Positions 9,846-62,600 of a DNA stretch of 64,000 nucleotides are shown here, piece after piece. Source of the DNA: Sphaerolaimus hirsutus (lineage: Eukaryota > Nematoda > Chromadorea > Monhysterida > Sphaerolaimidae). The translations under genes were made by a program, and so were the position numbers. The stretch's first letter is position 1. Each line of letters begins with the position of its first letter. Below the pieces are notes generated by a model. The model searched no databases. It was not told where the DNA came from and saw only the letters and a program-made list of their open reading frames with translations. Location: contig OZ038451.1 in NCBI GenBank assembly GCA_964036195.1, forward strand, positions 13,582,529 through 13,646,528, in the 5' to 3' direction.

Positions 9846-12800
9846 TCACTTGTAACAGCGATAGATCATATTCATCACAAACATATCTACAGTCGTCAGC
9901 ATGATCAAAACACAAATATTTACAGTCTGAATTGTCCTCGGAGTTGCATTTTCCTGTAGGATTAACTGACTAGTAATAAACTGATTACAGCGCAATATAT
10001 CTAGTATCTTCAATATTTAGGTAGACAAAATGTTAAGGCTGCATCCAGGGTTCTAGTCACTAGTAGTCGTTCCATAATTAATTGATTTTGTTTTATAATT
10101 TGAATGGCGTTTTTATAGGTTTTCGAATTAACCGATCACTTTGTAATTCTCTCACCGAAAGTGTGTACCCAATAGAATAGATTCCGGGGGACTTATTCAA
10201 GCGCATAACAAGAGCTCACCTCAAGCCTAATGGCCGCTTGTTCGAGTAGAGCCTGCGCCTGCGACTGTGCATCTCCGTTGCGTTTCTTTGCGCGAATCGT
10301 TCGTTTGATTGTCAACTGCGGCGGCTGCTGTCGCAGCTCGACTAGCGATCTGCATTTTTATAGGTAATTTGTTGCGCTTTTGTAGCCGTTTTTGTTTACG
10401 GTAATAATTTACCTAGGTAGATATTCTTTTGCTTGATAAAATTACTTCATTTTTCCCATATCCGTTTGTTAAGCTGGAATTAGGGTTGGCCGATGTTTTT
10501 TAAACGTTTTATTTTAAAAAAACAACGTTTTTTATAAAAAAACACGAGGTCCGAAACGTTTTTTTGTTTAAAAAAAACCTTTTGGATTAAAAAAACGTTA
10601 AAAAATACAAAAACATGGCGTTAAAAAAACGTTATTTTTCCAACCCTAGCTGGAATTACAGCTCGACGGAAAATTATGACACAACGGAGAATTATTTTTC
10701 ACCGCAAAATTATTGACAGAAGAATGGAGAAAGATACAACAGTGTTATAACTTTAGAGTTAAGTAGTCCTATAAATTGTCCTTTATGTGTGTAAATTTCA
10801 TTGCTTCATTCATATTATTATTGTAGTAATTAATTTTGCGGTAAACTTTTTGTAATTTTCCGTTGAAATTTTCCGTGATGACAAAATTTACCGCAAAATT
10901 AATTACTACATAAGTAATATGAATTATGAGATGGAATTTACACACATAAAAGATAATTTATAGGACTACTTAACTCTAAAGTTATAACACTGTATCTTTC
11001 TCCATGCTTCTGTAAATAATTTTGCGGTGAAAAATAATTCTCCGTTGTGTCATAATTTTCCGTCGAGCTGTAATTCCAGCTTTATACCTGTATTTTATAA
11101 TGACGTGTAAGTGAAGAACACATGTAAAAACACAACATCTCGCTAAAATTATTTAAAGTGCAACAGAGCAATACAAAATTTGTAAAGGAACCGGAAAAAT
11201 TGACATTTTTGCAGACGCAAACGAAATCTGTGCAAACTTTGTTACTGTCCTTAAATGAAAACGCCGAAAAGACCAACTGTGTTATAATACCTGAGCTTTT
11301 AAAATCAACAAAAGACTCATTAGATCTTTTCTCTGCATGATAAAAATTTTAGAACTCAAAACACACAGAAAGTTCTCACAAACATTGTGGCAGCATTACC
11401 TCATGTAAAATACATTTATTTGATTCCCCAGGACTCACCCAATAAATACTGTACACTTGTGTATTGTTGCTTCAATACTCGCCATAGTGTTGTCTCTCTT
11501 GTATTTTGATTGTTCATCGGTGTCCATTTTCTCATTTTTCCATACTGTCAATGAACAGATTAATTCTCTGTAATTAAATGTATTTTTAATTTGGAATCAC
11601 ACCATTTCTGTCAAAAAAGCATGAATTCGAGTCACCCATCCATCGCTATACATCTGGGGCAGGGACGTAGCCACTAGTCAGGATTTTTGAGCGGGGGGGG
11701 GGGGTGGGCGGATTGTATACCAAGCCCGGCGAACGGGGGGGGCGGGCCGCCCCCCCCTAAACTTTTACCCCTGTAGTGAGGGAATGGCGCCATGGCGCCA
11801 GCGCCATTCGTAGGCGCTACGCCATGGCGCCACTAGCGTTGGCATTGGCGGCAAAACGACAGGCATATACAGCGACGTGGACAGGAATTGAGTCCATTTT
11901 CACTGGCTTTGAGGCCGCGGAGACTGGTCAGCTGAAAATATATGTTGTGAATGGAAAGTGCGCGCTTTACAAACTGTCGACAAAATGGTCTTCTGAAAGT
12001 GCCATTCTGGCAGATTTTTTTGTCCGGCCCGGGAAGGGGGGGGGTGGCGGCCGCCCCCCGCCCCCCTGGCTACGTCCTTGATCTGAGGCGTCGACTTAAA
12101 AAGTTGATAAGTCCAAAAAGTGCATTTTATAGCCACATTAAACTTCTAAACATCAAATGAATCAGGATAACTTGATTACCTTCCTCCAATCAAAGGTTGG
12201 CAATCGGCAGACATATTCTTCTTGCATGCCGCTTCCCTGGCTAAAACATCCATGTGATACAAAGCGTTGCCGAGATCGAGTTGGGCCATGTTCCGTGCAT
12301 TGTTATTTTCCCGTTGAACTTTGAGGATTTTCGCAGCCACGAGTGGCCTGTGATTTTGGAGAGGGACATTGATTTTGTGTTGAAGGAAAATTATGTATCT
12401 GTATGTATACCTAGGGTTGGCCGATGTTTTTTTTTAAACGTTTTTTTTAATAAAAAAAACGTTTTTTCTTTAAAAAAAACATGACGTCCGAAATGTTTTT
12501 TTTTTAAAAAAAAACATCGGCCGAAATTTTTAGTACTAAGCACTGGGTATTTTGCAAAATTTTTGCGCGCAAGCGCGCAATTTCACACACAAATTGACAT
12601 TGGTGGTTGTTTTCATTGGTTTTGTTGCATTTTTAGTATCAAAACATCCATTTCTATGTGCTACCATGGGTGAATAAGCCGACATATGTTGCTGTAATAT
12701 ATAATATTGAGGTAATGTGCTTCCATGTACCTCCACAGTGTGTAACTTCACTCCCAAAGTAACAACCTCCTTTTATAACCTTGTTTGATCACCATTTCGT

Positions 12801-13907
12801 GCCAAACCTTACCTGAAGTCTCGAACATTCGACTATAAGGCGATATACAAACGATATGTCGACGAAAAATGGATATTTTTGACACAAATCACCACTTATA
12901 ATGCTATCCCATGGCTCCACAGCCATTATATGGTCATATTTAACATCACAGAGTATTGCCAGTGTCTGATATACCTATACATGTTGACACTAGGTCATAT
13001 CTGGGAGCTTTTAAAAAAAAACGTTTTTTTAAAAAAAACAACGTTTTTTTTATAAAAAAAACATCGAGTTAAAAAAAACGTTTTTTTTCCAACCCTATGT
13101 ATACCTATATTAGGTACTCGGATAGGTTGCGTGCTGAACTAAGCTAGTTATCCAGGTGAGACTTTTCAAACTGCTAAAATTTAATGCGAATTTAAGCATT
13201 CAAACGGCAGTGAACAGTTGTTCGAGTCAATGTTCATAAAGCTCCGTGAAAAATTTGGTTAAGGGTTATGAATGCTCAACTTTGAGCACAACTTTTCAGA
13301 AAAAAATCATGACAAAACGTGCTGTTATCACTCTAGAAGATAGCACCTGTTTCCATGTGCTTGTCTCTCCATCTGCAGCACAGGTTGTTCCAGCGCCATA
13401 GAAGCCAGTTTCTGAAATTCACGAAATGTGTGATCCTCTGTACATTTGCATCAATCAAAGATCGTTTTAGTGCACTTGTATGCAATGTAATTAGCATTGA
13501 CAAAATCTATGGGAGATTTATATTAAAAAATCTCAGAAAACTTCAGAAAATATAAGATTTTCTGAGATTTATATTTTTCATGATTTTCTAGAGAGATTTA
13601 ATTACATTTTCTTTTTGAGAGATTTTCTGAGATTTGTAAAAATATCAGAAAATCTCTCAAATTCTGATATTTATATTTATTTATATTTTTCAAGGTTTTT
13701 GAGTGATATTTAATTAGGTATATTTTTTGAGAGATTTTCTGAGATTATATTTAATTATATTTTCTAAAAATTGATGATTTTTTCAATGCTATTTAAATGC
13801 AATGCAACCGCACTCACCATAAGCTCTGGAGTTACAATGACAGATTTTCCGTGTTGTCTTCCATTCACCATTGAGGCCGATGTGAACAAAATAAGCAGGG
13901 CAATCAT
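9846..13907 (-). CDS. Unrecognised secreted protein, five exons
   Basis: Exons on the minus strand are 13907-13818, 13435-13347, 12347-12180, 10349-10220 and a probable last exon 9953-9846. Junction phases are consistent and give about 194 residues. Residues 1-16 (MIALLILFTSASMVNG) form a clear signal peptide, so the product should enter the secretory pathway. The mature part is hydrophilic, Gln/Arg/Ala-rich and likely helical (for example QAQALLEQAAIRLE at the end of exon 4), with only two cysteines in exon 3. No family is recognised and no function is claimed. The last exon is odd. The spliced frame ends at TGA (9848-9846), while another frame of the same exon is longer and Cys/Asp-rich with spacing C-x7-C-x3-C-x6-C-x3-C. 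Introns contain a hAT MITE and two TAGGGTTGG elements. Confidence 0.65.
10471..11082. repeat. Long foldback (near-palindromic) element
   Basis: The left arm (AAGCTGGAAT at 10471, continued from 10657 as TACAGCTCGACGGAAAATTA) is matched in inverted orientation by the right arm ending at 11082. The arms are about 200 bases each and remain highly similar through the CACCGCAAAATTATT and AGTTAAGTAGTCC blocks. The centre is near 10860. A TAGGGTTGG MITE (10481-10648) is inserted near its left tip. Confidence 0.8.
10481..10648. mobile_element. hAT-type MITE, TAGGGTTGG family, short copy
   Basis: The ends are TAGGGTTGGCCGATG and ...CCAACCCTA. An exact 8-bp duplication GCTGGAAT flanks it (10473-10480, 10649-10656). 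The interior is only AAACGTTTTTTT-type words in both orientations. It interrupts the foldback element at 10471-11082, so it is the younger insertion. Confidence 0.88.
11660..12080. mobile_element. hAT-type MITE, CAGGGACGTA family, copy 3
   Basis: The ends are CAGGGACGTAG and ...CTGGCTACGTCCTTG. The flanking 8-mers are ATCTGGGG and ATCTGAGG (7 of 8 identical). It has the same G-run, C-run and GGCGCC architecture as the other copies. It lies in an intron of the secreted-protein gene. Confidence 0.88.
12412..13097. mobile_element. hAT-type MITE, TAGGGTTGG family, long copy
   Basis: The ends are TAGGGTTGGCCGATG and ...CCAACCCTA, with an exact 8-bp duplication TGTATACC. Subterminal blocks are runs of AAACGTTTTT. 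The unique core (about 12530-12990) is almost identical to the copy at 39795-40458, including an identical 73-codon minus-strand frame. The two copies must be recent relatives. The core is not a recognisable transposase. Confidence 0.88.
13530..13770. repeat. AT-rich word repeat (GAGAGATTTTCTGAGATT)
   Basis: Degenerate copies of GAGATTT and TCTGAGATTTATATTTTT are repeated in both orientations just downstream of the first exon of the secreted-protein gene. A related block lies at 15535-15800. No ends or duplication could be fixed. Confidence 0.5.
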
Positions 13908-14274: not shown

Positions 14275-15345
14275 GCCTGAGGGAACTGTATGGCTAGGGA
14301 TGGAAAGAGACACCGTTTTTAACAACACGGTCTTTTTAAAAAGGCACCGTAAATTTGAAATCTTTTGAAAAAGCACTTCAAAAACATGTATTTTTCAAAA
14401 TGTCCAAAAGTTTGGGTAAAGAGTGAGAATAAATATCACTTAAGTGTCACATATGCATTATCATGTCTACTATGGACACACAATGCCTGTGAAACCATAC
14501 CATAGCTAGTGATGGAAAAGGCACCGGGAAAAATGGCACCGCACTGCACCGGCACCGGTGTCACTCCTCAGGAATGGCACCTGGCACCTTAGGGCACCGG
14601 CAAATAATGGCACCGCACCGCACCGGCACCGGTTCCATTCTGAAAAAATTAGCACCGGCACCCTGGGGCACCGGGCTGAAAGTTCCGAAGGATTTATCGG
14701 GTATTTTCTTAGAGGCCGCAACTTCAAACGTGCATTTTTCCAGGAATTCTCTATCGATTTTGATGTTTGAGCGTTCAAAATGATCAGAATGATGTGGCGA
14801 TCACTTTATGAAGCAATTATAATAATTATAAATGATAGCTCAAATATTTAGTCCACTCCAATACACACACCGATAGTCACTATTGTCTTCTGTCTGGGGT
14901 GGATATTGTACAGGAAATGTTTTATATTTTGTCATGTACTGACAACGAATTATGAACAAAATGGCAGAACAAATGAAATATTTATGATTGAAGAAAACAC
15001 AATCATTTATTCTATCTTCAGAAGGTTATGGCGCATTTCAAAGTAAATTTGACGAGACTTTTTTTCTAAAAACAGTTGAATCTAGAATATTTATATGTAT
15101 AAATATGAATAAGCACATGACATAAGCTGTTGACATAATTTCCCCCCTATTACGACTTGGCCGGTGCCTTTCCCAGTGTTTTTTACTTTGGCCCTGGTGC
15201 TAGCACCTTTGGCACCAGCTGAAAAATGGCACCGCACCGGCACCGGTGCTATTCTGGAAAAAATGGCACCGGCACCGGCAGGGCACCCCCGAAAAATGGC
15301 ACCGCACCGCACCAGTGCCCTTCGGTGCCCAAAGGCCCAATTCAT
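14275..15345. repeat. GGCACC word repeats, two clusters
   Basis: Clusters at 14510-14690 and 15150-15345 repeat the words GGCACCGCACCGG and AAAAATGGCACC. The first opens with TAGTGATGGAAAAGGCACC, the same start used by the GGCGCC elements. A degenerate relative (GGCACCG near 14290-14350) precedes it. The sequence between the clusters is AT-rich with no gene seen, and the frames across them are repeat artefacts. Confidence 0.6.
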
Positions 15346-15842: not shown

Positions 15843-16555
15843 CAGCGTTGCGAAAGCGTATTTCCGCGTACCCGAAATACCCGGGTAAATGGGTATTTAT
15901 ACTTACGCTTACGCTTTCATAAAATACGGTAATACCCATACGCTTTATTACGCTTTCCTGCCCGAATTACCCGGGTGCTAAAAGCGTAAAAAAGCTTTTC
16001 CCACGGTTCGGTTTTACGCTTTTGAAAAAGTGTAAAACCACAAAAAGAAAGTGAACGATACTGCGTACCAAAACAAGTGACTGCGTGTGTGCAATAATGT
16101 ACTGGAAATAGCGGCACATGTATTTACAAATTGTGTCGCAATGTGAATGTTTGGTTAACACTGTGTCATCGAGCAAAATCGTGGCTTTAGATTAGAAATT
16201 TTGGGGCCGAAAATAGATTCCCACGACGATGTTGTCATCTTCAACAGCACGAAGTCAGAGTTAGAAAATGAATATGACCTTAGTGTTGCTGCCGATGAAT
16301 TGCCAATGAATTGAATGAATCTAAGGGCAGACTACCAAGTGGGCGTCAAAAAATGTCGCTGGGAGCTTTATTGTGTAAGAATTCACTGAACAAAAACTGT
16401 TTAAAAAAATTTTATGCTTACGCTTTTTTTACGCTTTCCTAGGTATTTTAAAAATACCTTATGCTTTGACTTTGAGTATCCATACTCAAAATTTGGAAAG
16501 TGTATTTACGCTTACGATTACGCTTTCCAAAAATACCGGTATTTTAACAACTCTG
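15843..16555. mobile_element. hAT-type MITE, CAGNGTTG family, copy 2
   Basis: The ends are CAGCGTTGCGAAAGCG and ...TTTTAACAACTCTG. An exact 8-bp duplication TGCAGTAG flanks it (15835-15842, 16556-16563). Subterminal sequence is made of TACGCTTTTACGC and ACCCGGGTA words. The core is unique and non-coding. Confidence 0.88.
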
Positions 16556-18014: not shown

Positions 18015-21000
18015 CAAATTTACAGCATTTGGAAAATTTTGTGATTCCAGACAAAATGCACTGTTAGGACCATAAGCCACACCATCTTTCCCAAGTTTTG
18101 ATTTAACATCCAGATACTTTGATGTGTACAAATGAATGCCTGGTTGGTTTGAATATACATCCAGCATGATGTCATTCTTGGAGCTTTTCACCCTTTGAGC
18201 ATATGGATAACAGTTGATATTTGTTACGAGGAACAATAGGCCCTCTCTAGGGCAAAGGCAATGGTGAATTAAAGCAACACTCCCACACTAAACGGGGTTG
18301 ACACCCATTGTGGCCGCGACATTGTGGCCGCGGACGCGGCCACAATGTCCGCGGCCACAATGTCGCGGCCACAATGGGCTCATACCACTAAACGGTGTTC
18401 TAATCAAACCATAGAAATCCATAGAAACTGAAAAACTTTTAAAATCAAATATCTTGCAAACCTAGCAGCATGCTTCATTTCACTTTCTGCTGTTTTCGCA
18501 CTCCATCCATTAAGACAAAAGGTTCTATCTATATTCGGAGCCATATCTCCAAAAATATCAGCACATGTCTTTGGTTTTTCGAAATTGACCTGCATTGCAG
18601 TGAGAGCGATACGATTTTGGTGCACCAGACACTGAAATTTTGAGTTATGCACCCGAGCGTTTTTTGATGCGGTACGGGAACTGATATCCTCAACAATTCT
18701 AAGTTTTGCATTTGGACAGTGACATGTCCACAACGTGCATTTGGACAGGAACAAAAAGAAGCATCTACGAAGAAGTCCATGGACAAAATTTTTCTTCCTG
18801 TTTATGTGCTATTTATGGAGTTATTAAAACTTTTAAAATCAGTGCCGTGGACTTTTTTTGCTTTCTTACATTTTTCGGCAAAAAGAGTGTACACTGTACG
18901 TGTACGGTGTACTTACTGACTATTTCCTTGACAGCATGAATTATCGACTTTTTGCTGGATAGCGTGTGGAGCTATCAACTTCTTGCCAGAGATTTTTTAG
19001 AAAATTGTTCCTCACTGTTCCAAAAGTGTTAAGATGTGATGCTTGAAAAATAGGGCAAGTTTAAAATTAAAACGTGGAAACTGGTTAATGTTCTGCAGGA
19101 TCAATTCTAACTGCCATTACTGTTTTAACCCAATTTTCTAAATTTTGGAGTTATTTAGATGTGGATGCCTCATTTGTGGTTCAACATTCAAAAAAACATT
19201 CAAAAGCATAATTCAAAATTTCAGTATGTGTAATATGTGCAGTGTTCTCCAATGTGGGGCAGCTGGGGCAACACCCTCCAGATCGGCTAGCACCCGCAAA
19301 TTGGCCAGCTATCTAGCCAGGGGTCTCGAATGAGGGGGGGGGTTGGGAGGGGGCTTACCCCCCCCAAACCGCCCAGCTATCTATCTATCCCGGAGGCCGC
19401 TCAGCTGTCTATCTATCCCGGAGGCAAAATTTTGGGCTACTACTAGGGTTCAAACGGGATTGACTTTTCGGGATCGGGATCGGGATTCACTTTTTGAGAT
19501 TTCGGGATCGGGATCGGGATTGGGGTTTCGGGATCGGGATCGGGATTGGTATTTTGAGATTTCGGGATCGGGATCGGGATTGGCCGGGATTACGGGCCCC
19601 GGGATCGGGATCGGGATTGGCATTTTTTCGGGATCGGGATTGGGGTCTAGGGATAGAGATTTTCGTCACTGTTCTGGCATTCACAGTTGTTCATAAAGGT
19701 CTCAGAACACTGTTGGATGCCAGAAAAGTGACATAAAATGGACGCTGGGGGTTTGCGTTCACATTTTTGCATGCAAAAATGTCATTTTTTCACTTTTTAT
19801 AATTTCCACTATTTTTTCTGGGATCGGGATCGGGATTTGAAAGTTTTCGGGATCGGGATCGGGATTGGTATTTTTGGATTTCAGGATCGGGATCGGGATT
19901 GGTATTTTTGGATTTCGGGATCGGGATCGGGATTGGTATTTTTGGATTTCGGGATCGGGATCGGGATTGGTATTTTTGGATTTCGGGATCGGGATCGGGA
20001 TCGGGATTGGGGTTTCGGGATCGGGATCGGGACTGCTAAATCCCGGAATTTCACGGGATCCGGGATTGGGATCGGGATCCCGTTTGAACCCTAGCTACTA
20101 CCCCCTAAACCCCCCCCCAATTTTTGCTCAAAATCACTATTTTTCATACCTTTTTATAAGTTTTCACCTCCAAAATACTAGTTTTTGTTCCTATTTACCT
20201 ATTTTCAGTACTATATGCTCTTGTATACCCATTTTGAGCCATTTTACACCTACTTTTAGTGATTTTTCTCCCTTTGCTTCCTTCTATGCCCGAAAAAGCC
20301 TATATCCCGAACCACCACAACCCCCCCCAAAACCCCCCCAACCCCCCAGAAAATTTTTCAGCTATCTATCTCTCCAGAGGAGCGATTTGCTATCTATCCA
20401 ACCACTCAGAGGGTCAAAATTCAAGATACCCCTGTATCTATCTATCACAGAGACCCACTTAGCTATCTATCTATCCCAAAGCAAGACTTCTGGCCACTAT
20501 CAGCAGAGCCCCTCCCCCTAAAATCCCTCAGCTACCTATCTATGTGGCAAATTTTGAAGTATTTGTCCTTAATTTTCAGTAAAAATCGCAAATTTTTGCT
20601 TTATTTTGCCAATTTTCACCTTCAAAATTGATATTTTTGGCTAGTGATGTGAAAAGCGCCAGAACTTTTTCGAGAGCACCATGGCGCTTTTCCGACCCCC
20701 AGCGCCAAGCGCCAATGGCGCCAGAGAAAAATGGCGCCAAGCGCCAGAAGCGCCATGGCGCTTTTTGCTTTGGTGCTAGCTAGGGTTCAAACGGGATCCC
20801 GATCCCGATCCCGGATCCCGTGAAATTCCGGGATTTACCAGTCCCGATCCCGATCCCGATCCCGAAACCCCAATCCCGATCCCGATCCCAAAATCCAAAA
20901 ATACCAATCCCGATCCCGATCCCGAAAATTTTCAAATCCCGATCCCGGTCCCGAGAAACTCCCAAGTCCGGGATCCCGATCCCGGAAAAATTGGTGGAAA

Positions 21001-22919
21001 TTATAAAAAGTGAAATAATGACGTTTTTGCATGCAAAAAGTGGATGCAAACCCCCAGTGTCAATTTTATGCCACTTTTCTGGCATTCAACAGTGTTTTGA
21101 GACCTTTATGAACAACTGTGAATGCCAGAAAAATGGCCAAAATCTCTATCCCGAGAACCGAATCCCGATCCCGGAAAAATGCCAATCCCAATCCCGATCC
21201 CGTGACCCCAATCCCGGCCTATCCCGATCCCGATCCCGAAACCCCAATCCCGATCCCGATCCCGAAATCTCTAAAAGTGAATCCCGATCCCGAAAAGTCA
21301 ATCCCGTTTGAACCCTAGCTAGCGCCAACAGCCAGCGCTAGGCATTTTGTTCCTGGCACCGGTCAAAAGTAGCGCCAAGCGCCAAAAGCGCCATGCGGCT
21401 TTACATGGGCACAGTGCCAAGCGCCAGTGACGCCACAGCAAAATAGCGCCAAGCGCCAAAAGCGCCATGGCGTTTTTGCCATGGCGCTTTTACATCACTA
21501 TTTTTGGCTGTATTGGTTGCATAGCTATTGTGAGCTTTTTAATTTTTTTTGGTTATTTTGAATATTTTTTTCCCTTTCTGCCTTCTGTATCTTGAAAAAT
21601 GCCTATTGATTGAGCCCCCGCGAGCCGCCCCCAGCCCCCCAGAAAAAATTCAACTATATCTATCCATCCGGAGGAGCAATTTGCTGTCTATTTCAGCCCC
21701 CCCCCCCCCTGAGGTTTTAAATGCTGGAGACCCCTGAATATCTGTGCGATGCCTTTGTACAATATCCAGAAGCTAAATTTTTAAATGATAACAAGCAAAA
21801 TTTTGGATAACATTTGTCATATTCACTGGCACAATCTCTCCTGTTACAAGGTCACTTTCATCTGTGGGAAGGTAGTGAGAAGCATTGATTTGTATTTCCT
21901 GTTCTGAAATGCTGCCATGCCCCTGAAACGGGAGTCAATTTACGATATCCTGCACATAATACGGGATACAGCACGTTATTCCAACGATTTCACTTACATG
22001 CCCATCCAAATTGAAGTAAATATGGCTTGTCATATTCACTGGTGAAATCTCATCACATTCAGCAATAATTTCAATCTTCAACTCATCATTCACCGTATAT
22101 GAATAAGTCGCACAAACATTGCATCTCCCAGGAAAGTCAAGATCGTCTTCTGGGTTGTCAACCAATTTCAGTTGGAGTTTTTCATCGGATGTGTCCATGT
22201 CTTTTATGATGGAGGCATCCCAAAGTCTCTGTGAGCATAATTGATGAAATGGACGGCTTTTATTGGTTGTTGCCATGTGATAGAAAACGTGCAAGTGCTA
22301 TTCAGATTCCTAATCATTTACAAAACTTACATAGCCATAGTTTCTCTGAGCACTGTGGTTGCAATTTGGCCCGTTATTGCAAGTCAACTGGTAGTCTCTG
22401 CCATTTACAGAAAACTGACCATTTGCAATTCGGTTAGCAACTCGCCCAACTATTTGGCCCATGAAAAACTCATCTTGCTCATAGCCTAGAATACTGTTGC
22501 TAATATACAAGTGCTATACAAGTACATAGGCTAAGTTGCTTTTTCAAAAGCGTTTCAATGCATAGAAAAAAGTAATTGTCAATTCTTCAAAATTCTAAGA
22601 AATCACACTTGTGATTTATCATTGTTTGATGTCAGTTACTGAAAAATTATGATGAATGTTCTACAGGCCTCCTTTCATATTGGCAGAATAGTGGAAAAAC
22701 ATCCTCCCCACCTTGAAGACTGGCAAAACCACAGACAACGTCAATAGATTTTGCATGTGCATCATGTACAATCCATGATGTTACACAACCACCTAAATTC
22801 ATTACACACACTTTGTTGTTTTTTGAATTGGTCAAGGAAAAGAATTTGGCTTTTTGGCCAAAATATTTGTGGGAATGGCTGAAGGGTTCCTCCCTCGTCA
22901 GTTCCACCTTTGTAGGCAT
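18015..22919 (-). CDS. GALM: Aldose 1-epimerase (galactose mutarotase)
   Basis: GALM interconverts alpha and beta anomers of galactose and glucose in the cytosol and feeds the Leloir pathway. Exons are 22919-22712, 22485-22331, 22228-21998, 21922-21827, 18589-18462 and 18192-18015. All junction phases fit, giving 332 residues, close to the human length of about 340 once the missing short last exon is added. Family landmarks are GRVANRIANG, GPNCNH (first catalytic His), MTSHIYFNLDGH (second catalytic His), LPTDESDLVTGEI, QPGIHLYTS and FCLESQNFPNAVN (catalytic Glu). The usual HGG after the first catalytic His is HSA here. The start ATG at 22919 precedes the conserved N-terminal strand; another ATG lies at 22967. 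A possible final exon near 17010-16932 encodes GMRVEVSYSYYLY, but its phase is not settled. Intron 4 (about 3.2 kb) is full of nested MITEs. Confidence 0.9.
18296..18385. mobile_element. 90-bp palindromic word element in GALM intron
   Basis: The 14-base word CATTGTGGCCGCGA occurs twice forward and three times as its complement, forming a very GC-rich hairpin. The flanks carry an exact direct repeat CACTAAACGG (18286-18295 and 18386-18395). This is the smallest element of the word-array type in the window. Confidence 0.75.
19318..20434. mobile_element. hAT-type element, CAGGGGTCTCGAA family, copy 1
   Basis: The ends are CAGGGGTCTCGAA and ...CAAGATACCCCTG. The flanking 8-mers TATCTAGC and TATCTATC match at 7 of 8. 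The interior words are CAGCTATCTATCTATCC and poly-C runs. The GGGATC element at 19444-20093 is inserted inside. More remnants of the same CTATCTATC type continue to about 21735. Confidence 0.75.
19444..20093. mobile_element. hAT-type element filled with GGGATC repeats, copy 1
   Basis: The ends are TAGGGTTCAAACGGGAT and ...CCCGTTTGAACCCTA, with an exact 8-bp duplication GCTACTAC. The interior is mostly GGGATCGGGATCGGGATT units. A short unique core (about 19660-19820) mentions no known gene. The long open frames of Arg-Asp and Ile-Gly repeats are artefacts of the satellite. Confidence 0.9.
20642..21500. mobile_element. hAT-type element, TAGTGATG/GGCGCC family, copy 1
   Basis: The ends are TAGTGATGTGAAAAGCGCC and ...GGCGCTTTTACATCACTA, with an exact 8-bp duplication TTTTTGGC. 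The interior repeats AAAAGCGCCATGGCGC words. A GGGATC element (20781-21317) is inserted in it. Confidence 0.88.
20781..21317. mobile_element. hAT-type element filled with GGGATC repeats, copy 2
   Basis: It has the same TAGGGTTCAAACGGGAT ends as the copy at 19444. Its core (about 21000-21140) is the inverted counterpart of the core in that copy. The flanks share GCTAGC immediately on both sides, so the duplication is less clean than in copy 1. It is nested in the GGCGCC element at 20642. Confidence 0.85.
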
Positions 22920-23283: not shown

Positions 23284-26200
23284 TCACATTTGTGACGTAG
23301 TGAAGTTTGTCTTTTTAGTTGCGTTCCCCATACCAATCAGTTTCTCCAAATCATCCTGCGAGTTTCAGGGGATGTGCAAAGGTAAGAACTTTTACAATAA
23401 GCATTGAATAGACACCAGTTTAATTAAAATGTCCATTATATGTGTGATATACACTACCGTGCAGAATACTATTCTGCACGCTAGTGTATTTTGATCTATT
23501 TTTAAGAGATTCCAGCACATTTTTTGTCTAACCTGCCAGCCGAGTAATTCTGCCAATTGTTTGCAGCCATCATCACAATTCCCCTGCCAAAAAACATCAC
23601 GTTTGTTGTCTTCCTCCTCAAAAAGCAGGCCGCCAGTTTCAAATGAAGATAACCATGGTGAGGACACAGATCTCTGAAGGCGTTCAAACAATTAGGTATG
23701 TTTCATATGGAATTATACTTAAATAATGCTTAATAATGCTTAAGCTTTAATTTGAACAAAATTTTGTCATAATCTCTGTAATGAAGTGTGCATGTCATCC
23801 TTAACACCTGGCACATTATCATTTCATTTTTCTTAAAAACAATAAAGAATTCAATTAACCGTGAAACAAACAGTATCTGTTTAAATGAAATTTTTCGTTG
23901 AATCTTCAAATATCAGACAGTCAAGTATTAGTAACCAGATGGATCAAAACTGCATGAAGTTGCTCTAGTTTATAATGAACTGGCTGTAAATACACATAGC
24001 ATGCAATAGCGTTTGTAAAAACGTAAAACTGGATCCTCAATCATATATTTGATTGAGGTATTTCAGTTCTCCAGCTAATTTCCAACACCCTGGTCACAAT
24101 GAAATGTTGAGTTTAGAATTCAAATTCAGAACCCCAAAAGCAAGCTGTTATGGGTTACTGAAAGAAATCAACCTCACACTGATCCAATGAGGAATATTGA
24201 AACTACCTACAAATCAAAATTGCACCCACCTGGCCCACAGCATCTCTATTTATCAATAGTCTAGGAACACTTCCTCCAATCCAGTCAATCAAACTTGCAA
24301 ATGGATGCACAACAAGTGAGGTGCCCATTATTAGAAGCAAGTCACACTGGGGAAGATCCTGTGTTTTTATTTTCAATTTTGAATTGATTGAATTTTCAAA
24401 TACCCATTCCGCACAAATACCCGTTTCGCACAATGCCCATTACGCACAAATGATCAGTCGTGTGTGTAATGGGAAATTGTGCGTGATGGGTTCGATTTTG
24501 TGCGTAACCGGCAAATGTGCGGAATGGGTATTTGTGCGTACTAGTACACCGTCGATTTTATATCATGCTGATGTAAAGGTTGTGAAGTTCCATATCATTT
24601 TGTCCTATGCAGATAAGTAAAGGTTACCTCACTCGACTGCAGTCCATGCTAATTTACACTGACATATACAAACAATGCACAAAAATAACCTTAGTAGCAC
24701 ACTGGAAGAATCTGTTGGGCAATGCTTCTCCAAAAAAGACAATATCTGAAAATGTAATTGAAATGACAATAATTAACAACAATAATTAAGAATGTTCAAT
24801 TAACATTATCTACCTGGTTTTACAACACCTTCACACCTCTCACATCTCGGAACAGAGTCCTCTGCCTTGTGAGACATGTCTGAATTTGGAAATAATGAAT
24901 AAATTGAAGCGACAGGAATAGTGATGGAAAAGCAGCGTGGCGCTTGGCGCTACATTGCTGTGGCGCCCTTGGCGCTTGGAGCTACACCCGTGAAAAGTGC
25001 CATGGCGCTTGGCACTTGGCGTTATTTTGCTCTGGTGCGATTGACGCTGGGGTCCCGAAAAGCGCCAAAAGCGCCATGGCGCTTTTTGCTTTGGTGCTAG
25101 CGCCAGGCGCCAGCGCCATGGCGCTTTTACATCACTAATAATAACTTTCCCATTGTAAATTATTATAGGGTGCTGAGCATTTCATAAGTAGTTATGCATC
25201 TATTTACATGATGTATCATAATTAAGATCAACATTAACATCCTTTTATTCCATAATCTCTTGAAATATTTGTGCCTTAGTAAATAAATGCAGAGGACCGA
25301 AAAACTGACCAAGAATCCAACGTTTTGCATATTTCTTCTTGCACATAGTGCATGTGCCAGACTTCATGCTGCCATGAGCTTCAACAATTTTGTCTGCTGG
25401 AATGCCAGTATCATGCTCCAAGGCATCGATATTCTACATTTTTCGTCGAATATTTATATCTAATCAGGACCGCTTCTATATAAAAAGAGATAAAAGTTGA
25501 TAACTGGACACTCAAGCTGTCTTTACCTGAGTGTAGTTTCTCAATAACAGTCCTTTATCATAAATCAGTTTGATGATCTAGTGAGCAGTAGTTGGCTGAA
25601 TGAAAAGACATAAAGTTTTAATGGATCTTACTCATAAAATGCAAAATCATATACCTGCAAATTATTTGGCATTATTTCCTTTGAAACCAAGAAGAATGGT
25701 GCTGGGTTCATCATGAAATGATTAATAGTGAATATTTCCTGAAAATTTACATTTAGGATCAATGTAGCTCAAGAATAAATACAGAGTGAATTTAGGTTAA
25801 CAATTTACTTGTGGATCTCTCAAACCATATTTCTCAAGGTCAAGTGTCTCATAAACACCTGAATTTGGGCTGCGAAAATCAGGCACACCGGCAGCTGGAG
25901 TGGAGTGTGTGAGGAGAATGTGTTGATCAGGGGTCTCGAATGGGGGGGGGGGTAACCCCCCAAACCACCCAACTATCTATCTATCTCGGAGGCCGCTAAG
26001 CTACCTATCTATGCTGGAGGCAAAATGTTCAGCTACTATCGCCGAACCCCCAGCAAATTTTTCAGCTATATATCCCCCAGAGGAGCGATTTGCTATCTAT
26101 CCAACCCCTAGAGGGTCAAAATTCAAGTTACCCCTGTTGTTGATATCGGAAGTTATATCATCGAATAAAATGCATACCAGTTGATATGCCAGCTCCTGTC

Positions 26201-39794: not shown

Positions 39795-40458
39795 TAGGGT
39801 TGGCCGATGTTTTTTTTAAACGTTTTTTTTTTTTTAAAAACGTTTTTTTTATTAAAAAAACATGACGTCCGAAATGTTTTTTTTAAAAAAAAAAACATCA
39901 GCCGAAATTTTTAGTACTAAGCACTAGGTATTTTGCAAAATTTTTGCGCGCAAGCGCGCAATTTCACACACAAATTGACATTGGTGGTTGTTTTCATTGG
40001 TTTTGTTGCATTTTTAGTATCAAAACATCCATTTCTATGTGCTACCATGGGTGAATAAGCCGACATATGTTGCTGTAATATATAATATTGAGGTAATGTG
40101 CTTCCATGTACCTCCACAGTGTGTAACTTCACTCCCAAAGTAACAACCTCCTTTTATAACCTTGTTTGATCACCATTCCGTGCCAAACTTTACCTGAAGT
40201 CACGAACATTCGACTATAAGGCGATATACGAACGATATGTCGACGAAAAATGGATATTTTTGACACAAATCACCACTTATAATGCTATCCCATGGCTCCA
40301 CAGCCATTATATGGTCATATTTAACATCACAGAGTATTGCCAGTGTCTGATATACCTATATATGTTGACACTAGGTCATATCTGGGCGCTTTTAAAAAAA
40401 AACGTTTTTTTTTTAAAAAAAACATCGAGTTAAAAAAAACGTTTTTTTTTCAACCCTA
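39795..40458. mobile_element. hAT-type MITE, TAGGGTTGG family, long copy 2
   Basis: It is nearly identical to the element at 12412-13097. The ends are TAGGGTTGGCCGATG and ...TCAACCCTA. The flanking 8-mers ACCATGAC and ACCATCAC match at 7 of 8. The 73-codon minus-strand frame in the core is identical in both copies. No gene is seen in the surrounding 38.75-41.16 kb. Confidence 0.88.
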
Positions 40459-48900: not shown

Positions 48901-51900
48901 GTAACAAAATGCCCAGAAACGACAATTTACGCAGTACTCCAAAATTCTTCAATGGATGTGCACTGTATGGAAGACTACGGAATTGATTTGAACTACAACT
49001 ACCATATTACCTTGAAATACCCCCATGGGCATTATTATTTCATCAGAAAGTTTTGTAAGGATCATAGAAAATAGTAGGCATTTATGTACCCAAAACAGGT
49101 TATAAATGCGTACAAACAGGATATATTTGAAACAAACATGTAGATAGCTACACAACCTAGTACAGTCTATGTGTAGCTGCGATGCAAATTAGCAGTAATA
49201 AATACATCATGTACATTGGAGGGGGCTATTTCAAGGGGGGCAGGGCTTATTATTTCACCAGTCCATTTTGAGGGGAGTTAATTCAAGGGGGGGGGGTTAA
49301 TTCAAGGTAATAAGGCATACTTAAATGTTGAAACTTAAATTGTCAAATCCACCACGAGATGTGCATGCCATCTTGAATTTATTTTGTACCATTATAAAAT
49401 ATGAATACATTATGTACATAAATATTTACATACTATAGATGCTTATCTTATCTTGTTTAGTCAACTGAATTAATGTGCATTCAACCGCTTCGCTGAAAAA
49501 AACACAAAAACTCAAAAAACTTTTGTGTGTTTCCGTGTTTCTGTGTTTCTGTGTTCTCCAAAAAAAAACTCATTTGAGTTTTGAGTTTTTCAAAATTTAT
49601 GAGTTTCCGTGTTTCTGTGTAAAACAAAAACACAGAAACTCAATGAGTTTCTGTGTTCAATTTCTGTGTTTTTTCCATCGTTGCACGTGATCCGTAGTAT
49701 CTCAATTTAAATAACATTGTTATCTGTTTTGTGCCATGTCAGCAGGGAATGCGTTTGTTTTGATACCATATTTTCTCGTAATGATGCTTGTAGAATAGGA
49801 ATCATATTAATCATTAAAAAGTGAGAATATGACGTTGTTCCTCATTGTGTCACAGTCATTGATAATGAAATTCGATCGCTTATTAAATTTTACTTTCCTT
49901 TCTCGCTGGCAGGGCAGATTGTCAACGCCATTTATAGGATGGTGTTTGTGACATTTATTGGGATTGTTATCAATGTAAAATGTAACTTTTCACACTGAAC
50001 AAACATACATATTTACAAAACGATCACCAACTACACATATTTAATACTGCATTCACCCTTTTAAAAAGCCATACATACAATAACAAAACAACATAAAAAC
50101 TAGCACGGGAAAAAAATAACCCTTCTACAAATTCAAACAGGTTCACTTCCAGTACTTCTCACATACACCGAGAGTCCCAGCATTGATCACAATAGTGCAC
50201 CAGATAACAACACCCATACAGCAGTATCCACAGTGTCAGTGGGTAATACTGATGTGCCACTTGAAAATGTGAATGGCATCAAAAGTACTGTGCTGCTGCG
50301 GACAGGTGGGAAAGAGAAATTTGGCTTGGCATTGTGTGACCTGCTACAGGTTTGTTTTGCAGCCATACGTGTCAGGATTGCAGTCTTTCGCAGACTGCAA
50401 TGTTAATCTTAATGGGTATTCAATTTCAATTCAATTTTGAAGTTATTGACTTTTAGATGTTTACATGCTTCAATTGCTGCTTCTATACTCCAGTTACCAT
50501 ACACCCTGCATGTGTGGTTCCCGCTGGAAGCGTGCCAACGAGTTTTTTACACATGCGACATTTAGAAAAAGTTTAAACAGTCATCTCTGTTATAACGCTA
50601 TACATTAACTTATTCAACTTAGAAAAATCGCATGCTTTATCATCATTGGCATGCTTCCAACATGTGACATAAATGAGTGCAAGGGCGGAGTATCATGTCC
50701 GCCGAGTATACATAGGAAATTGAGTTTGCGAAAAATAACATCCACATGTGAGAAACTTATTTTTACTGCTCTCCAGGGGATTTTCATCAATTTCATCAAG
50801 CAAGATTCACCTGCTAAAGCGGCAAAACTGCACGTGGGTGATCAGATTTTGCAAATCAATGGAGTTCATGTGGGCAAAATTGGAAATGCCAAAAAGTGCA
50901 TGAAGATGTTGCAGAAAATTAGCGGTAACATTGTTGGGATCAGTTGGAGGAAAAGGTATGTTGTTTTTCATTAAATGTAGGTTTGTTTGTTTATTTTTCT
51001 GATCTTGTAAAAAAACACACTCATATCTACACCTTATTCTCAAAAACACTTATTTTTTATCATCTTGATCCAGGGTACATTTGTTTACAGGCCTCTTGAG
51101 CACAAACTCACTCTAAAAAAGTCCAATGACAAGCAGTTGCTCGGCTTCACAGTTGGTGATAATGGGCATATTTTGGGTGTGAGCAGAGATGAGGACCATG
51201 GGGCATGTGCAAATGGCCTTCTGCCTGGTTTGTCATCTGTTTTTTGTTTGATAGTTTGATTGAAGAGATCCATCCCACTTTAAGCATCGCATGGGTTGTC
51301 ATTTTTCACAGGACACAGCTTGGTTTCAGTGAATGGGATAAATGTTGTGGGGATGAAGGTGAGAATTTATTTGGGATTTCATTCTGAATTTTTCTTGTAA
51401 CCAACATCGACAAACCTTACAACAATCAATTCAGGCAAGTGATATAAAGAAGTTTATCAAAAAGCAAGGCCAGACAATTGTGCTCATGTTCATTCCAACT
51501 GTGTTCCATGAAGTTCTCACAAATAGGTGAGTGGAGTCCATTAACATTGTACATTGGTTCAATACTGCAAATCCTTGAATAAGACCCCCTTGAAGTACTC
51601 CGGCCTTTAATGACTCCGCTTCTGTTCTCCAGGTGAGAAAAAACACCCCCTTGAATACCCCCCTTGAATAACCCCCAATTGAATACCCCCCTCTTGAATA
51701 ACTCCCTCTCAAGGACGTACGCAGAGGGGGGCGGGGGGGGCGCCCCCCGTTCCCAGGCCGGACAGAAAAATTTGCCAGAAATGGCACTTTTCTTAGGCGA
51801 ACTTGTGGGCACTTTAAAAAAATTTTTGCGCGCGAGTGCGCAAATCCCTACCCCATTCTTTAATATGTATTTTCAGGTGTCAAATTGCATTAGAAAAGTG

Positions 51901-53021: not shown

Positions 53022-53473
53022 TACCGTATTACCTCCAATATCCCTCTAATATAAGGTACCCTCTAATATAAAGTATAACTTTTGGCTACATTGAACACGA
53101 CGAAATAAATATACGGTGCCCTCTAATATAAGGCATACCTCTAATATAAGGCACAGCTGGCTGCGGGCCAAAATGCACAAAATCATAAAAACGGTCGCCA
53201 AACATGACGGAAAATGATGAAAATGGTGCTGAAGGGCACTGCGATAACTGTTCGTCGACTTCTGTTATTTTGTAGTGATACTGTACCACCTATTTCGTAC
53301 ATTCCAATTTGAAAAAAAGGAATTGTATCCTTGTTCACTGTTGGTAATTTTTTTTTAAATCTGGTGAAAATAATTGAAGATACCCTCTAATGTAACTGTA
53401 AGGCATAACTTTTGGCTCGAAAAATCTGACGAAAACAATATAAGGTATACCTTATATTAGAGGTAATACGGTA
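53022..53473. mobile_element. TACCGTATTACC element with CTCTAATATAAGG filler
   Basis: The ends are TACCGTATTACCTCCAATAT and ...ATTAGAGGTAATACGGTA. The filler is CTCTAATATAAGGTACC words. It has the same terminal bases as the CTCGAAATACCCC group but an unrelated filler. Confidence 0.8.
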
Positions 53474-54630: not shown

Positions 54631-57600
54631 AGCTTTGAAATCATTGTTTTAAACACATTCGAATGTTCTCAACTCACCATAAGTTCTCAACTCACCATCA
54701 GCGCTGGCGCCATTTGAGGGCGCCAAAAGGCACTGCTCCATGTCACCATTGGTGCCACACACGCTGGATGTCAACTGGATTCGTGTCAACTAAATTTTAG
54801 TGAATTATGTGATTTCAACTTACCTATCTGATAGAGCAATGTTAATTTAATATCATGACGCTTAATTTTCATTGTTTCTGTTAGGTGTGATGCCTTCAAA
54901 AATCCTTTTTGTTATTTAGTTGACATTGAGTTGACACGAATTTGCGATGTCAACGAGCGTGTCTGGGCCCATTGGCGCATCGCGCCTGTTGTTTTGGATT
55001 TTTTCCACTACTCACCATCCTTTTTTGGCATTTTTTTGTAAAGAATCAACTGCCTGGATATTTTCTATAAATTTCTGGACACTGGCGGGTTGGGCACTAC
55101 ACAGTAAAAATGAACTCTTCAAACCAGTCTTTATCAAATGCATCAGAGAGCTTCTCGAATCTACAGTACCTAATTATATTCTTCAGACACCCGAGTAGTT
55201 AAGTTAACTTTGACGGGGACGTTGTTCGACCATTAATAATAATTATTATTGATTGCGTTATTAAAAAGGAGACTGATAATTTTTCAAACATTTTTGCAAT
55301 GCTGTGCAGTAGTACTCTGCTAACATCTCATATATAATTAGCTTACATAAAGGTGCTATCTAATTACTGACGACCGTATTCAGATACAGTTTCAGTGCGA
55401 AGTTGTCCAAATAACCATTTCTTATTTCAATGTATAATATACATTATTTCCTCTAAATACCCCCCGCCTCTAAATACCCCCCCCCCGAAATACCCCCCCC
55501 CCCGCGAAATACCCTCCCTCAAAATGGCTACTATGACTTTAGAACACCCTCTCGAAATACACCCTCCCCCTAAATTGAGTGTAAATGACAAAAGCTACGG
55601 TGTGTGGTCCGGGCAATGCAGAACACACGTTAAAAACAATGATTGTGTGTTAGAACGGGGATGGTCCGGCCGTAAAGTAAACCCGGCCGTAAAGTAGAGG
55701 GTGCTACTTTCGGCCGGGCATCAGTATGGCAGAGTTGTTAAAAGTACTGAACTTGTTTCAAAGTAAACGTAAACGTAAAGTATTTTATTTTTAGTCACAC
55801 CTGAGTACAGAAAACGTAAAGTAAAATTTTTCTACTTTTACGCTGTGTAAAAGGTGAGTAAGCGTAAATATCTGTAAATACTCAGGGAAAGCGTGAAAGT
55901 AAGTAATTTTTTGATTTTGTATCTAGGAAAACGTAAAAATGAGTATAGGTGAAAGTGAGAGTCGTCGCTATCCCTACCCATCGCGAATTCTATAATTACC
56001 GCCGTTATTTTACGCTAGTTTTTTAGCCGTTTTAGGTTCGTGGGAGTGATTTTTTGCTTTTTATGCACTCAAAAAATGTTCTCAATTACGTTTTCTGTAC
56101 TCGCGTACTTTCAAAAAGTACGCGAGTAAGTGAGTACCGGTATTTTTTCGGGAGGAAACGTAAACGTATTCACGCAGCACTCGAGTATACGTATTTATCG
56201 AGTAAACGTAAATACGTTTTTATAACTATGCACTACGGCCGGATTTACTTTACGGCCGGGTTTACTTTACGGCCGAGATCTCGCCTGTTAGAACAGGGTT
56301 TAAAAAATAAACCCCCTGGGGGTATTTCGATAAAATACGCTACATAAATACATGTATGTAACGTTGAGATGAACGAGACGTTGTCCAACGTGCTTATTTA
56401 CCGTATATCCTCGAATAAGACAACCCTTGAATAACGCTCCCCGCGAACTCCCCCATTCGAATAAGTACCCCGACTTGAATGACTCCCCCCAACTTGAATA
56501 ACACCCCCTCTCTGTGATGGGTGGGAAAGATGTTGCAAAAATTTAAAAAAGTCAGACAGACCAAATAAAGCTACGCCTGGGCTGATTCATCGAATGCAAA
56601 TTGTAGTAGTTGATTGAATTTACTACATATTACAAAATGCAGTGAGGTGTCTGCATATCGAAAAAGAAGTACCAAAACGTGTTAGCCCGTGGCAAAAACT
56701 CTGACGACAAATAACTCCCCTGTGGTCTTATCCGAGGATATGCGCTATACATTTTGAAAATTGCAGTTGTAAACTAGTGAAGATATTGTGACCACATATT
56801 TATTATTGTGGCTTTAAGGGCAGGCTTTTTGGACCTCTACTGTTTAATCACTTTTTAGCCATTTGTAGTAGTTGATTGAACTTAATGTTCAATCTGAATA
56901 AGGTAACTAGGTACTACAAATTGTTGTTTTTTGTCTGTGCGAGACCACGTCAGAGTTTTTTATGGCGGATGCGCGGTTATGTTTTCCTGACGTCGCTGAA
57001 ACACGGATGATACCAAATTCTGCACCAAAACTTAACGTGGAAAGGAAAAAGAAAGTGTTTAACGTTACTGTATTTCTTCGAAAAAAAACCCGGTGCTGAT
57101 TGTTTCAGAGTGACAATTTTGAGGGGGGGTTTAACGAGGGGGGTATTTCGAGGGGGGGGGGCTTATTATTTCGCCAGAAATTTTTTGAAATTCCAGTACT
57201 AATTTTGTCGTCTGTAACGTATGCAGATTGCAGACGTAGAAAAATGCAACAATAACTGCTATATATAAGAGTCTACTGACTTACATACCTAAGTATGTAA
57301 CACTGTTCTAATGTAACAATTCATTGTTTTTCACTGTGTTTTGCATTGCCCGAATCCCAAACCGCAGATTTGTCATGTACGTTCTCTGTACACTCAATTT
57401 GGGGGGTATTTCGAGGGCGTGCTAATAAATTCATAGTGGCCATTTTGAGGACGGTATTTCGAGACGGGGGTATTTCGAGAAAATACGGTATGCGTAATTA
57501 TCAAACAAACAAATGCGAATTCCCCACTGCTTTCGGTGGTAAAAAACTGGGCAAAATAGGTGATTAAATTTTTCATATCGGGAAGAAGTTTGCACCGGGG

Positions 57601-59653: not shown

Positions 59654-62600
59654 ATGCAGACAATGCTGAATTTAGCATCACTTTTATTCATTTCAATGTT
59701 TCTTTTGGCACCAAGCCAAGCGGTGAAATGTCCAAGATCGGGGCTACTTTGTCCACACCAGTGTTGTTATGATAAAGATGATAATGAGTTGTGCTGTGAT
59801 CAGAGAAGACAATACTATGGCGCCGGCGGGCCACCGTTGATTGACACAAGGTAAGCGATGAAACTTTTGTTTTCATTGAGGTGAAACCGGTTTATCACAC
59901 ACACTGTGGGCTGTGATGTAAATTATGCACATTTGAAAGACAGACACAAATTGTATAAAAAACATGAAACCGTATGAGTTCTTAAAGAGAACACAACAGC
60001 ATATAGGTATGCAAATCCTTAAATGAGTCCTTGAATGTTGAGTACCTAAATGAGTTATTTTTCATCAGATTTTTCGACTGCTGAGTTTTTCAAGGGGTAG
60101 AGAATGGCTTCTCACATTGTACCGCTGGTGCCTGGCGGCACAGTTTCTACAGGAATCGTTTTTATCACCTGAGACATGATTCAAAATGTTTTCCACATTT
60201 ATTACAAACAAAATGGCACCATTTTTTTCCAAATTTGGCATGCATTTTCACTTATGGAGAACTAAGTTTTTTTCATTGTTATTTTTTCATATTTCTGTTT
60301 TATCTTACACTGCCAGTGGCCAGTGGGATAAAACAGATTTAGAAAAAACAATATGCCTACAAAACTTAGAATGCAGTGGGACATTGTGTTTTTTAAGTAA
60401 ATGGTGTGTCCAACTGTCCAGTTCCATTTCCTCGACCAGTGGTCATTGACCACAGTAGACGGTCACGCCACATGACCAATACGAAGACACTACCTAAAAA
60501 CACAACACGTGGAAGCGAGTGGAAGTGAGCCGCTTCACGCGCATCCAGGCCGCTTCCACACGCTTCACGGACCCATTTTTTTGCTGTGTGTTGTGTTTTT
60601 GCTTTTGGCACTCTTCCAACAGGATTTCTACCTGCCATTCTATTGGAGACTGCCGATCAATTCGAGGCTGCCGTTTTATTGTTTTCATGAATGCAAAAAC
60701 TAGCCAAAACCTGCCATTCTATTGGAGGTGCCGTTCTATTAGAGGTGCCGTTCTATTCGAGGTGCCGTTCTATTCGAGGTGCCGCACTATTGTAGGTGCG
60801 GTTCTATCGGAGGTGCCGTTCTATAAGAAGAAATACGGTAGGTACCATTACACGCACCACCTATAACATCACAGTTTCTCTTGGGCGTGGCTTTTGATCG
60901 GTCTGGCCGTGAGCATCATCGTCTCAGTGGTCCTTTCCGTGCTGTGCTGCATCCTGTGCAACTGCGCCGCGTGGAGGCCGTTCACGCTGGTCAGGGGCGT
61001 CGCCGGGTCCGATTCAGAGGATGGCGGAGGACAACAGTTGTCGTTTTGGGGAGGTCAGTTGTCGCCGACTGCAAATGGTGACATTTTCAAGTTGAAGTGC
61101 TGAAATCGTATTGTCGACGTATTTCGTATTTCGCAGGAACAGGCATCCCATCAGCTACGATTTACATCCATGGATCACAGCCGCCGGCCGATCGATACTA
61201 CCATAGCCAGCCACCGCCGAAGTATCATGACAGTTACAGGTAAGGCTGTAACTTTCTTCTAAATATGAATTTGATGAATTTGAAGCTGGTAATGAATTTG
61301 AAGCACTGCGGCCGCGTGCACAATGTGCGCGCAGTAGCGCAGCCTGGGTATTCATTTCACATCACAAAGAAGGGTTTGGTGTATGTATACCGCATTTCCT
61401 CGAAATACCCCCCCCCCCCCCCGGGGGTGATTGTTTCAGAGTGAGATTTTTGAGGGGGGATTAAACGATATCTATATGTAAACAAAGTAACTCGAGTATA
61501 TGTATTTTTCAAGTAAATGTAAACACATTTTAACAACTGTGTCCAAATGTTCTGCGCATTCAACAATTACCTAAATGCTGCGATGTTGCAGAGTTGTTAG
61601 AATTACTGAACTTTTTTAAAAAGTAAATGTAAATGTAAGTATTTATTTTTTACTCATTAAAAAGTATAGAAAATGTAAAATACTTTTTTTTACTCGTACT
61701 CATGCGTGAATGTGAGTAAAATACTTTTTTCCCAGGAAAAATGTAAAAGTGAGTACTTTTCCCCGGGTAAACGTAAAAGCTACTACTTTTTACATGTTAG
61801 AGTGAATTTTACATTGGAAGTTAAAATGGATGTCGTTTTTGAGTGATTTTTTAGTCTTTTTGTAGAACAATTGTATAGTTTCTTCAAAATTTTCTTGTTT
61901 TAACAACGGAAAATTGTGATTTTAGCAACAAAAATACATTTTCTCTGTACTTTTAAAATGTACGCGTAAAAGCGAGTACATTACTTTTTAAAAGTATATG
62001 TAAATCTATTTACCTTGTACTCGCGTACGCGTATTTTTCGAGTAAATGTACGTACATTTTAACAACTGTGCGCTGTTGTACTTACATGTCGCTACACTTT
62101 ATCAGATACAGCGGTGCGCCATACAGCAGCATGGATGCGAGGGAATACCAACGGTCCAGCGCAATTTACGGCCAGAACGCAGGCAGAAGCCCTCTCCATG
62201 TCAAGTGGGTTTGGTAAATCTTACGCTCTTTACACATTTATATACTGTTGGCTAATCGCCATGAATTGTTTTTTAAAGCACAAACAGCAGTCCATCTCGA
62301 TCCCAAGTGACAACATTAAACTACCTCGATACTGGCGGCAGCAGAGGTGATGTTTCTGGCACCTGGCCAAAAGCCGATCAGCACTACAGGTGGGGTGGTA
62401 TTATACGGTATTTACGTTTTGTTTTCTTCTCATATACCTGGTAAACGTATGCTGAACGACAGTGCGGGACAAAATGTACCGTGCAAAAAACCGTCTTGCA
62501 AAAACTTTGACGAAATAATTCAATTCGATACATGATTAACCCAGTGTAAAATGTAAATACCTACCGTATTTCCTGGAAATACCCACCGGGGGTGATTGTT

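Follow-up and report, generated by a model that had tools for sequence, protein, structure and literature searches.

Exchange of repeated words beneath shared ends in small, putatively hAT-type elements of the nematode Sphaerolaimus hirsutus

A 64-kb stretch of Sphaerolaimus hirsutus DNA (contig OZ038451.1, positions 13,582,529 to 13,646,528; hereafter the window) contains small elements, many of them flanked by an 8-bp duplication, in which a short word is repeated many times. The locus raises the question of why elements with the same terminal bases carry different words, and of what such words might be for. An earlier note on this DNA had proposed that the elements are miniature inverted-repeat transposable elements (MITEs) of a hAT class and that each word is an amplified transposase-binding site. 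Our main new result is the exchange of the word within a shared scaffold, for which each word is represented by one to five elements.

All counts refer to this one window, in which elements were bounded by hand from the end motif and the flanks (n = 21, comprising 17 word-bearing elements and four CAGGGACG elements). Elements are named by their start positions. In the feature lines, a strand is given only where one was assigned, the duplication is scored over its eight positions, and density is the number of 500 background segments from the window that match the top-6-mer density of the element. Background segments were relied on, rather than shuffles, because in AT-rich elements the 6-mer counts are also attained by Markov-1 shuffles. 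The density test covered the 17 word-bearing and the four CAGGGACG elements, while 14507, lacking an identified right end, was left out.

Word exchange at shared ends

The elements with TAGGGTTCAAACG ends carry either CGGGAT or CGATAT, in agreement with the earlier observation that the first bases can be the same while the word differs.

19444..20093: TAGGGTTCAAACG element, word CGGGAT (43 exact); duplication GCTACTAC, 8/8; density 0/500
20781..21317: second TAGGGTTCAAACG element, CGGGAT (34), inverted relative to 19444 and nested in 20642..21500; about 82% identity to 19444; no clean duplication (3/8); density 0/500
35735..36536: TAGGGTTCAAACG element, exchanged word CGATAT/ATATCG (34), no CGGGAT; duplication GTACTGAG, 8/8; right end in register with 19444 and 20781; density 0/500

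Together, 19444 and 20781 contain 77 copies of CGGGAT and none of CGATAT, while 35735 contains 34 of CGATAT and none of CGGGAT. At its right end, 35735 can be aligned to the corresponding ends of 19444 and 20781 through the spacer GACTTTTC, with the words changed, and the 13-bp end and this spacer are thus common to CGGGAT and CGATAT elements. None of 1274 internal windows equalled this register match, either raw or word-translated.

Within these three elements the words and the spacers behave differently. In 19444, the 43 exact words are accompanied by only 5 one-mismatch relatives (1.9 expected from shuffling the rest), while its 16 spacers, of 4–22 bp, have a mean identity of 0.48 as compared to 0.44 when shuffled. 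The corresponding values are 34 exact and 4 one-mismatch words (1.8 expected) with a spacer identity of 0.42 (0.40 shuffled) in 20781, and 34 and 10 (7.2 expected) with 0.42 (0.42 shuffled) in 35735. Given that the words are exact and the spacers vary, the word, more than a tandem unit, is kept in both CGGGAT elements and in 35735.

The exchange at the TAGTGATG and CAGAGTTGTT ends is similar to that at the TAGGGTTCAAACG ends, but looser.

20642..21500: TAGTGATG element, word GCGCCA/GGCGCC, host of the nested 20781..21317; duplication TTTTTGGC, 8/8; density of outer parts 0/500
24919..25137: TAGTGATG element, word GCGCCA (12); ends pair at 11/12, no duplication; density 0/500
28717..29810: AGTGATG element, word GCGCCA; duplication TTCGTGTA, 8/8; density of outer parts 0/500
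14507..15330, plus strand: TAGTGATGGAAAAG end, exchanged word GCACCG/GGCACC, from word counts; right end not found, end coordinate approximate
15843..16555: CAGAGTTGTT-type element, left end CAGCGTTG, AGCGTA (11), no AACGTA; duplication TGCAGTAG, 8/8; density 13/500 (tested start one base off)
46102..46643: CAGAGTTGTTAAAAGTACT element, AAGTA (8) and AACGTA (9), Tgf2-like end; duplication 6/8; density 17/500
32779..33268: CAGAGTTGTT element, AAGTA (7) and AACGTA (6); duplication 7/8; density 15/500
55730..56230: CAGAGTTGTTAAAAGTACT element, AAGTA (9) and AACGTA (9); duplication 6/8; density 13/500
61589..62070: CAGAGTTGTT element, AAGTA (10) and one AACGTA; duplication 7/8; density 6/500

Four elements or fragments with TAGTGATG ends hold 55 GCGCCA and one GCACCG, whereas 14507 holds 21 GCACCG and one GCGCCA, together with 19 GGCACC and no GGCGCC. 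Since GGCGCC is palindromic, its figures are sites rather than both-strand counts, and the non-palindromic GCGCCA and GCACCG were also used. CpG decay as the cause of the change from GGCGCC to GGCACC was set aside, since a CpG persists in the GCACCG words of 14507. At the CAGAGTTGTT ends, the copies of AACGTA and AGCGTA number 9 and 2 in 46102, 9 and 3 in 55730, 6 and 0 in 32779, 1 and 0 in 61589, and 0 and 11 in 15843.

Ends, target duplications and word arrays

The remaining word-bearing elements fall outside these three end groups.

10481..10648: TAGGGTTGG element, word AAACGT; duplication GCTGGAAT, 8/8; weak density, 11/500
12412..13097: TAGGGTTGG element, AAACGT at both ends, long word-free centre; duplication TGTATACC, 8/8; density 54/500
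39795..40458: copy of 12412, 94% identity; duplication 7/8; density 80/500
41785..42615: CAACGATGG element, words GAGTTTT and CTGTGTTT; duplication GGAACCAC, 8/8; density 3/500
48537..49683: CAACGATGG element that carries an insertion and otherwise copies 41785 (two pieces, 90 and 89%); duplication CACGTGAT, 8/8; density 5/500
44833..45463: TAGGGTGT element, decayed word GGAAAACGG/AAACGG; duplication TACATGAT, 8/8; density 0/500

The Ac transposase binds AAACGG hexamers. Element 44833, possibly Ac-like, contains 10 exact copies of AAACGG in 631 bp. Element 10481 is inserted into one arm of a long inverted repeat at about 10470–11085.

Among the 21 hand-bounded elements, the flanking 8-bp duplication is exact in 13, 7/8 in four, 6/8 in two and absent in two (20781 and 24919); for the 17 word-bearing elements these numbers are 10, three, two and two. 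In the latter, 7 to 12 of the first 12 bases pair as terminal inverted repeats, and the starts are mostly TAG or CA. All eight starts for which a target duplication had been claimed (10481, 19444, 20642, 28717, 35735, 41785, 44833 and 48537) bear exact 8/8 flanks. Word-bearing elements additional to these include 12412, 39795, 20781, 24919, 14507, 15843, 32779, 46102, 55730 and 61589. A blind scan for an exact 8-bp duplication together with pairing at 10 or more of the 12 terminal bases returned 22 rows in the window, several of which are AT-rich or overlapping and not elements, as compared to five rows in total over ten Markov-3 sequences (0–2 each). The features of hAT membership found here are the 8-bp duplication, the short terminal inverted repeats and the subterminal repeats near both ends.

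The word arrays are real but graded, and they are not shared by every element with an 8-bp duplication. No background segment matched the density of seven of the 17 word-bearing elements (19444, 20781, 20642, 24919, 28717, 35735 and 44833), 3 and 5 of 500 matched that of the GAGTTTT pair, and 6–17 that of the five CAGAGTTGTT elements. Large shares of the copies in the window lie inside the family of the word for GGGATC (52/56), ATATCG (34/53), GAAAACGG (9/10), AACGTTTTT (19/21) and GAGTTTT (21/34), and low shares for AAACGT (24/91) and GGCGCC (7/28).

Most words favor the outer halves of their elements: CGGGAT (53/77), ATATCG (33/34), GAGTTTT (20/21), CTGTGTTT (13/13), AAACGG (9/10) and AAACGT (20/24 overall, with 9/9 in 12412). 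In the 17 word-bearing elements the first word, for which a 5-bp core was partly used, starts 12–36 bp from each end, with the right end of 61589 (75 bp) as the sole exception. The outer-half bias is lacking for GCGCCA and in the short 10481. Words that vary freely with no subterminal bias, the outcome named beforehand as damaging, are not what the main families display. The statement that the elements are made almost only of one word was too strong, given that the four elements measured have word-free centres of 99–554 bp. Repetition in both orientations applies to some words, which are mixed, but CGGGAT (41:2 and 31:3) and AAACGG (10:0) are one-sided.

The CAGGGACG elements and a TA-flanked family

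Two further groups mark the limits of the pattern.

4560..4974: CAGGGACG element, no word array; duplication ACCATGCC, 8/8; density 494/500; negative control
6553..6976, 11660..12080 and 28938..29371: further CAGGGACG elements; among the four in all, three duplications are exact and one is 7/8
30284..31099: CCGTATT element, TA-flanked, class a (GAAATACCC); density 13/500
32230..32645: CCGTATA element, TA-flanked, class b (GAATAA); density 21/500
53024..53471: CCGTATT element, TA-flanked, class c (TAATATAA); density only 76/500

The four CAGGGACG elements contain 24 copies of GCGCCA, the same word as in the TAGTGATG family, at 78–267 bp from their ends. The CCGTATT family has 24 TA-flanked ends in the window, between 28795 and 62652 (for example 28795, 30284, 32230, 44356, 53024 and 60838). 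A flanking TA was a condition for including an end, and the TA target thus proves little. By word class, with classes of G/C-run words chosen after the ends had been viewed, 12 of the 24 ends belong to a, three to b, two to c, two to d and five to none, and no end has two classes. This family is probably non-hAT. Similar elements occur in fish and ticks. It may belong to ISL2EU or another group with a dinucleotide target. The target site of ISL2EU is A|AT|T (PMC4482050). The designation as a hAT class was too narrow, since the TA-flanked family follows a similar rule, and too broad, since the CAGGGACG elements have no arrays.

The groups also occur together in a three-layer nest at 28717–29810, where the AGTGATG element contains a TA-flanked element (28795–29642), which in turn contains a CAGGGACG element (28938–29371). 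Degenerate 41-bp repeats with GGTACTTTTAAAA at 35360–35458 perhaps belong to another AAGTA-word element, whose ends were not found. Outside the window, matches to TAGGGTTCAAACGGGAT in viral contigs were taken as chance (13 stretches, 12 with one shared sequence and 0/13 with CGGGATCGGGAT); three further patterns gave no matches in viral contigs, and two patterns gave none in genome contigs. The only RNA gene found in the window is a tRNA at 36703–36779 (tRNA-Ser by ARAGORN; tRNA by Rfam). Exons of an aldose 1-epimerase, a Sir2 and a PDZ protein, attributed to host genes, lie at 21500–26400 (minus strand) and 50609–50971 (plus strand). These matches suggest an animal host, while a protein search bearing on the host gave no match.

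Candidate transposase sites and other readings of the words

Subterminal repeats are described as a general or defining feature of hAT elements, and it is the N-terminal zinc finger that binds them (PMC10368747, PMC4890040; see also PMC3143072). The BED domain of Hermes binds AAG(T/C), a motif present 17 times in one end and 14 times in the other (PMC10368747). For Tgf2 the repeats number 17 and 18, and forms truncated at the zinc finger show poor binding to the end (PMC4890040), while the Herves motif suffices for binding, and the motifs of Ac and Tol2 differ between the left and right ends (PMC3143072). The elements of the window resemble Hermes, Tgf2/Tol2, Herves and Ac in their short words near both ends, zinc-finger-bound in the known systems, and in their 8-bp duplication. 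They differ in having up to 43 exact words that fill much of a coding-free element, and in carrying different words with the same end; furthermore, in contrast to Ac and Tol2, they use a common word at both ends. Elements 46102 and 55730 repeat AAGTA and begin with CAGAGTTGTTAAAAGTACT, close to the goldfish Tgf2 end CAGAGGTGTAAAAGTACT (PMC4890040). However, both add AACGTA, and 15843 of the CAGAGTTGTT group has AGCGTA. The whole 50-bp Tgf2 probe does not discriminate, since beyond the start the alignment values of 49 and 44 are equalled by other CAG-starting sites of the window (best 50).

The nearest tested parallel to word exchange lies in the P superfamily, where the Galileo subfamilies share about 40 bp of their ends, the THAP site is outside them and is repeated in tandem, and the K end is bound weakly by the G domain, the N end not at all (PMC3688188). 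Ends common to subfamilies and a binding site outside them, here a candidate one, are found in both systems, but Galileo belongs to another superfamily, uses another binding domain, has three sites as compared to dozens here, and bears long inverted repeats. In pogo, likewise a superfamily other than hAT, the transposase (Lemi1) reportedly binds subterminal repeated motifs of the Emigrant MITE (Loot et al. 2006). Repeated transposase sites near hAT ends, and the analogous case of Galileo, were already known; no paper on word exchange within hAT ends was recognised in literature searches that had little coverage of subscription journals and did not take in Repbase.

As the best explanation, we consider it reasonably probable that the small, apparently coding-free elements are non-autonomous hAT-type MITEs, and that the words are expanded subterminal repeats, candidate sites of the zinc finger of a hAT transposase. 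The subterminal parts, and in small elements nearly the whole interior, would then be expanded arrays of such repeats. The catalytic part of a transposase encoded elsewhere would recognise the extreme 10–13 bp of the end, while the word would be recognised by the N-terminal BED-type zinc finger of the same protein. An abundance of words may raise cooperative binding, and with it mobility, helping a coding-free element to compete for the enzyme. Local tandem duplication of a word with its spacer would enlarge the arrays, while selection for binding would preserve the words rather than the spacers. If the finger specificity changed in a transposase lineage, the ends would stay and the word would be replaced, giving families with shared ends and exchanged words. 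The anatomy mostly fits the earlier proposal of amplified transposase-binding sites, through outer-half bias in most families, words near the ends, exact words between varying spacers in the best families, and word exchange within a shared end, but the arrays are not in all elements.

Several results weigh against this explanation. No transposase domain was found in 28.5 kb of the window searched in six frames (E 0.01), nor any transposase remnant in 10 open reading frames or in the centre of 12412; a comparison of hAT C-terminal motifs with the window gave no convincing match (best E 0.026, near 8128), and no autonomous partner was seen in the window data. The CAGGGACG elements lack a word array despite their duplications (density matched by 77, 81, 147 and 494 of 500), the AAACGT family is the weakest in density (11, 54 and 80 of 500), and outer-half bias is absent for GCGCCA (25/45), as it is for AAACGT in 10481 (3/7). 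Many one-mismatch relatives accompany the exact words in 14507 (21 exact, 9 one-mismatch, 2.5 expected), 20642 (20, 10, 1.0), 44833 (10, 20, 6.3), 15843 (11, 9, 5.2) and 46102 (9, 12, 6.0). In the register test, 22 of 1274 windows reach the score of 20781 under the second word-translation order, and the opposite TAGGGTTCAAACG ends are not clearly in register (36–88 of 1274 translated; 226 and 427 raw). Copy-to-copy conservation of the words had looked good with words defined on one copy, which is biased; under an unbiased union mask, the words were significantly better kept in one of five pairs, leaned that way without significance in three and were worse kept in one (12412 versus 39795), and this support was dropped.

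The same mixed conservation speaks for a rival reading in which the arrays grew neutrally, with slippage and unequal exchange expanding the terminus-adjacent sequence and MITE copying spreading it, so that the words would be functionless and would differ by their seeds. Arrays do contain tandem units, with 94% matches at a unit length of 34 bp and 98% at 40 bp, and some spacers are themselves repeated (TGGTATTTTTGGATTT). Nevertheless, the best families combine exact words with spacers that vary in length and sequence, arrays stand on both sides of word-free centres, one shared spacer is preserved while the words differ, and binding of such repeats by hAT transposases is already known. We accordingly regard neutral growth as rather unlikely. 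A role of the words for a host protein, such as a silencing or replication factor, or for DNA structure seems very improbable: each end group has its own words, these begin 12–36 bp from nearly all ends, and they parallel hAT subterminal repeats, even though many DNA-binding proteins could accept words that are palindromic or AT-rich (GGCGCC, AAACGTTT) and arrays also occur in the TA-flanked family.

Alternatively, there may have been no exchange, if unrelated families had converged on similar short ends under catalytic constraint. Beyond the ends, 19444 and 20781 give no match with 35735 that reaches 70 bp and 90 bits, one of the two TAGGGTTCAAACG end pairs lacks a clear register as described above, and the alignments of 14507 to the GGCGCC elements are loose past the end. 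Against convergence, the spacer is shared as well as the 13-bp end, and none of the 1274 internal windows aligns equally well; we give it little credence.

Returning to expanded subterminal repeats, we tentatively put forward a wider model, which is possible but doubtful. Ends would be modular, with a fixed catalytic end and a swappable addressing word. MITEs would have amplified the word to capture transposase, and autonomous lineages would escape by changing finger and word, with the MITEs following. The switches would then record an arms race in hAT and in the TA-flanked superfamily alike, and a word census would read past transposase specificities. If the preferred explanation is true, dozens of exact copies within a MITE, together with word exchange beneath retained ends, would turn MITEs into a fossil record of transposase specificity. 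They would offer a sequence-only route to zinc-finger codes, and MITE parasitism as a driver of specificity change would become testable.

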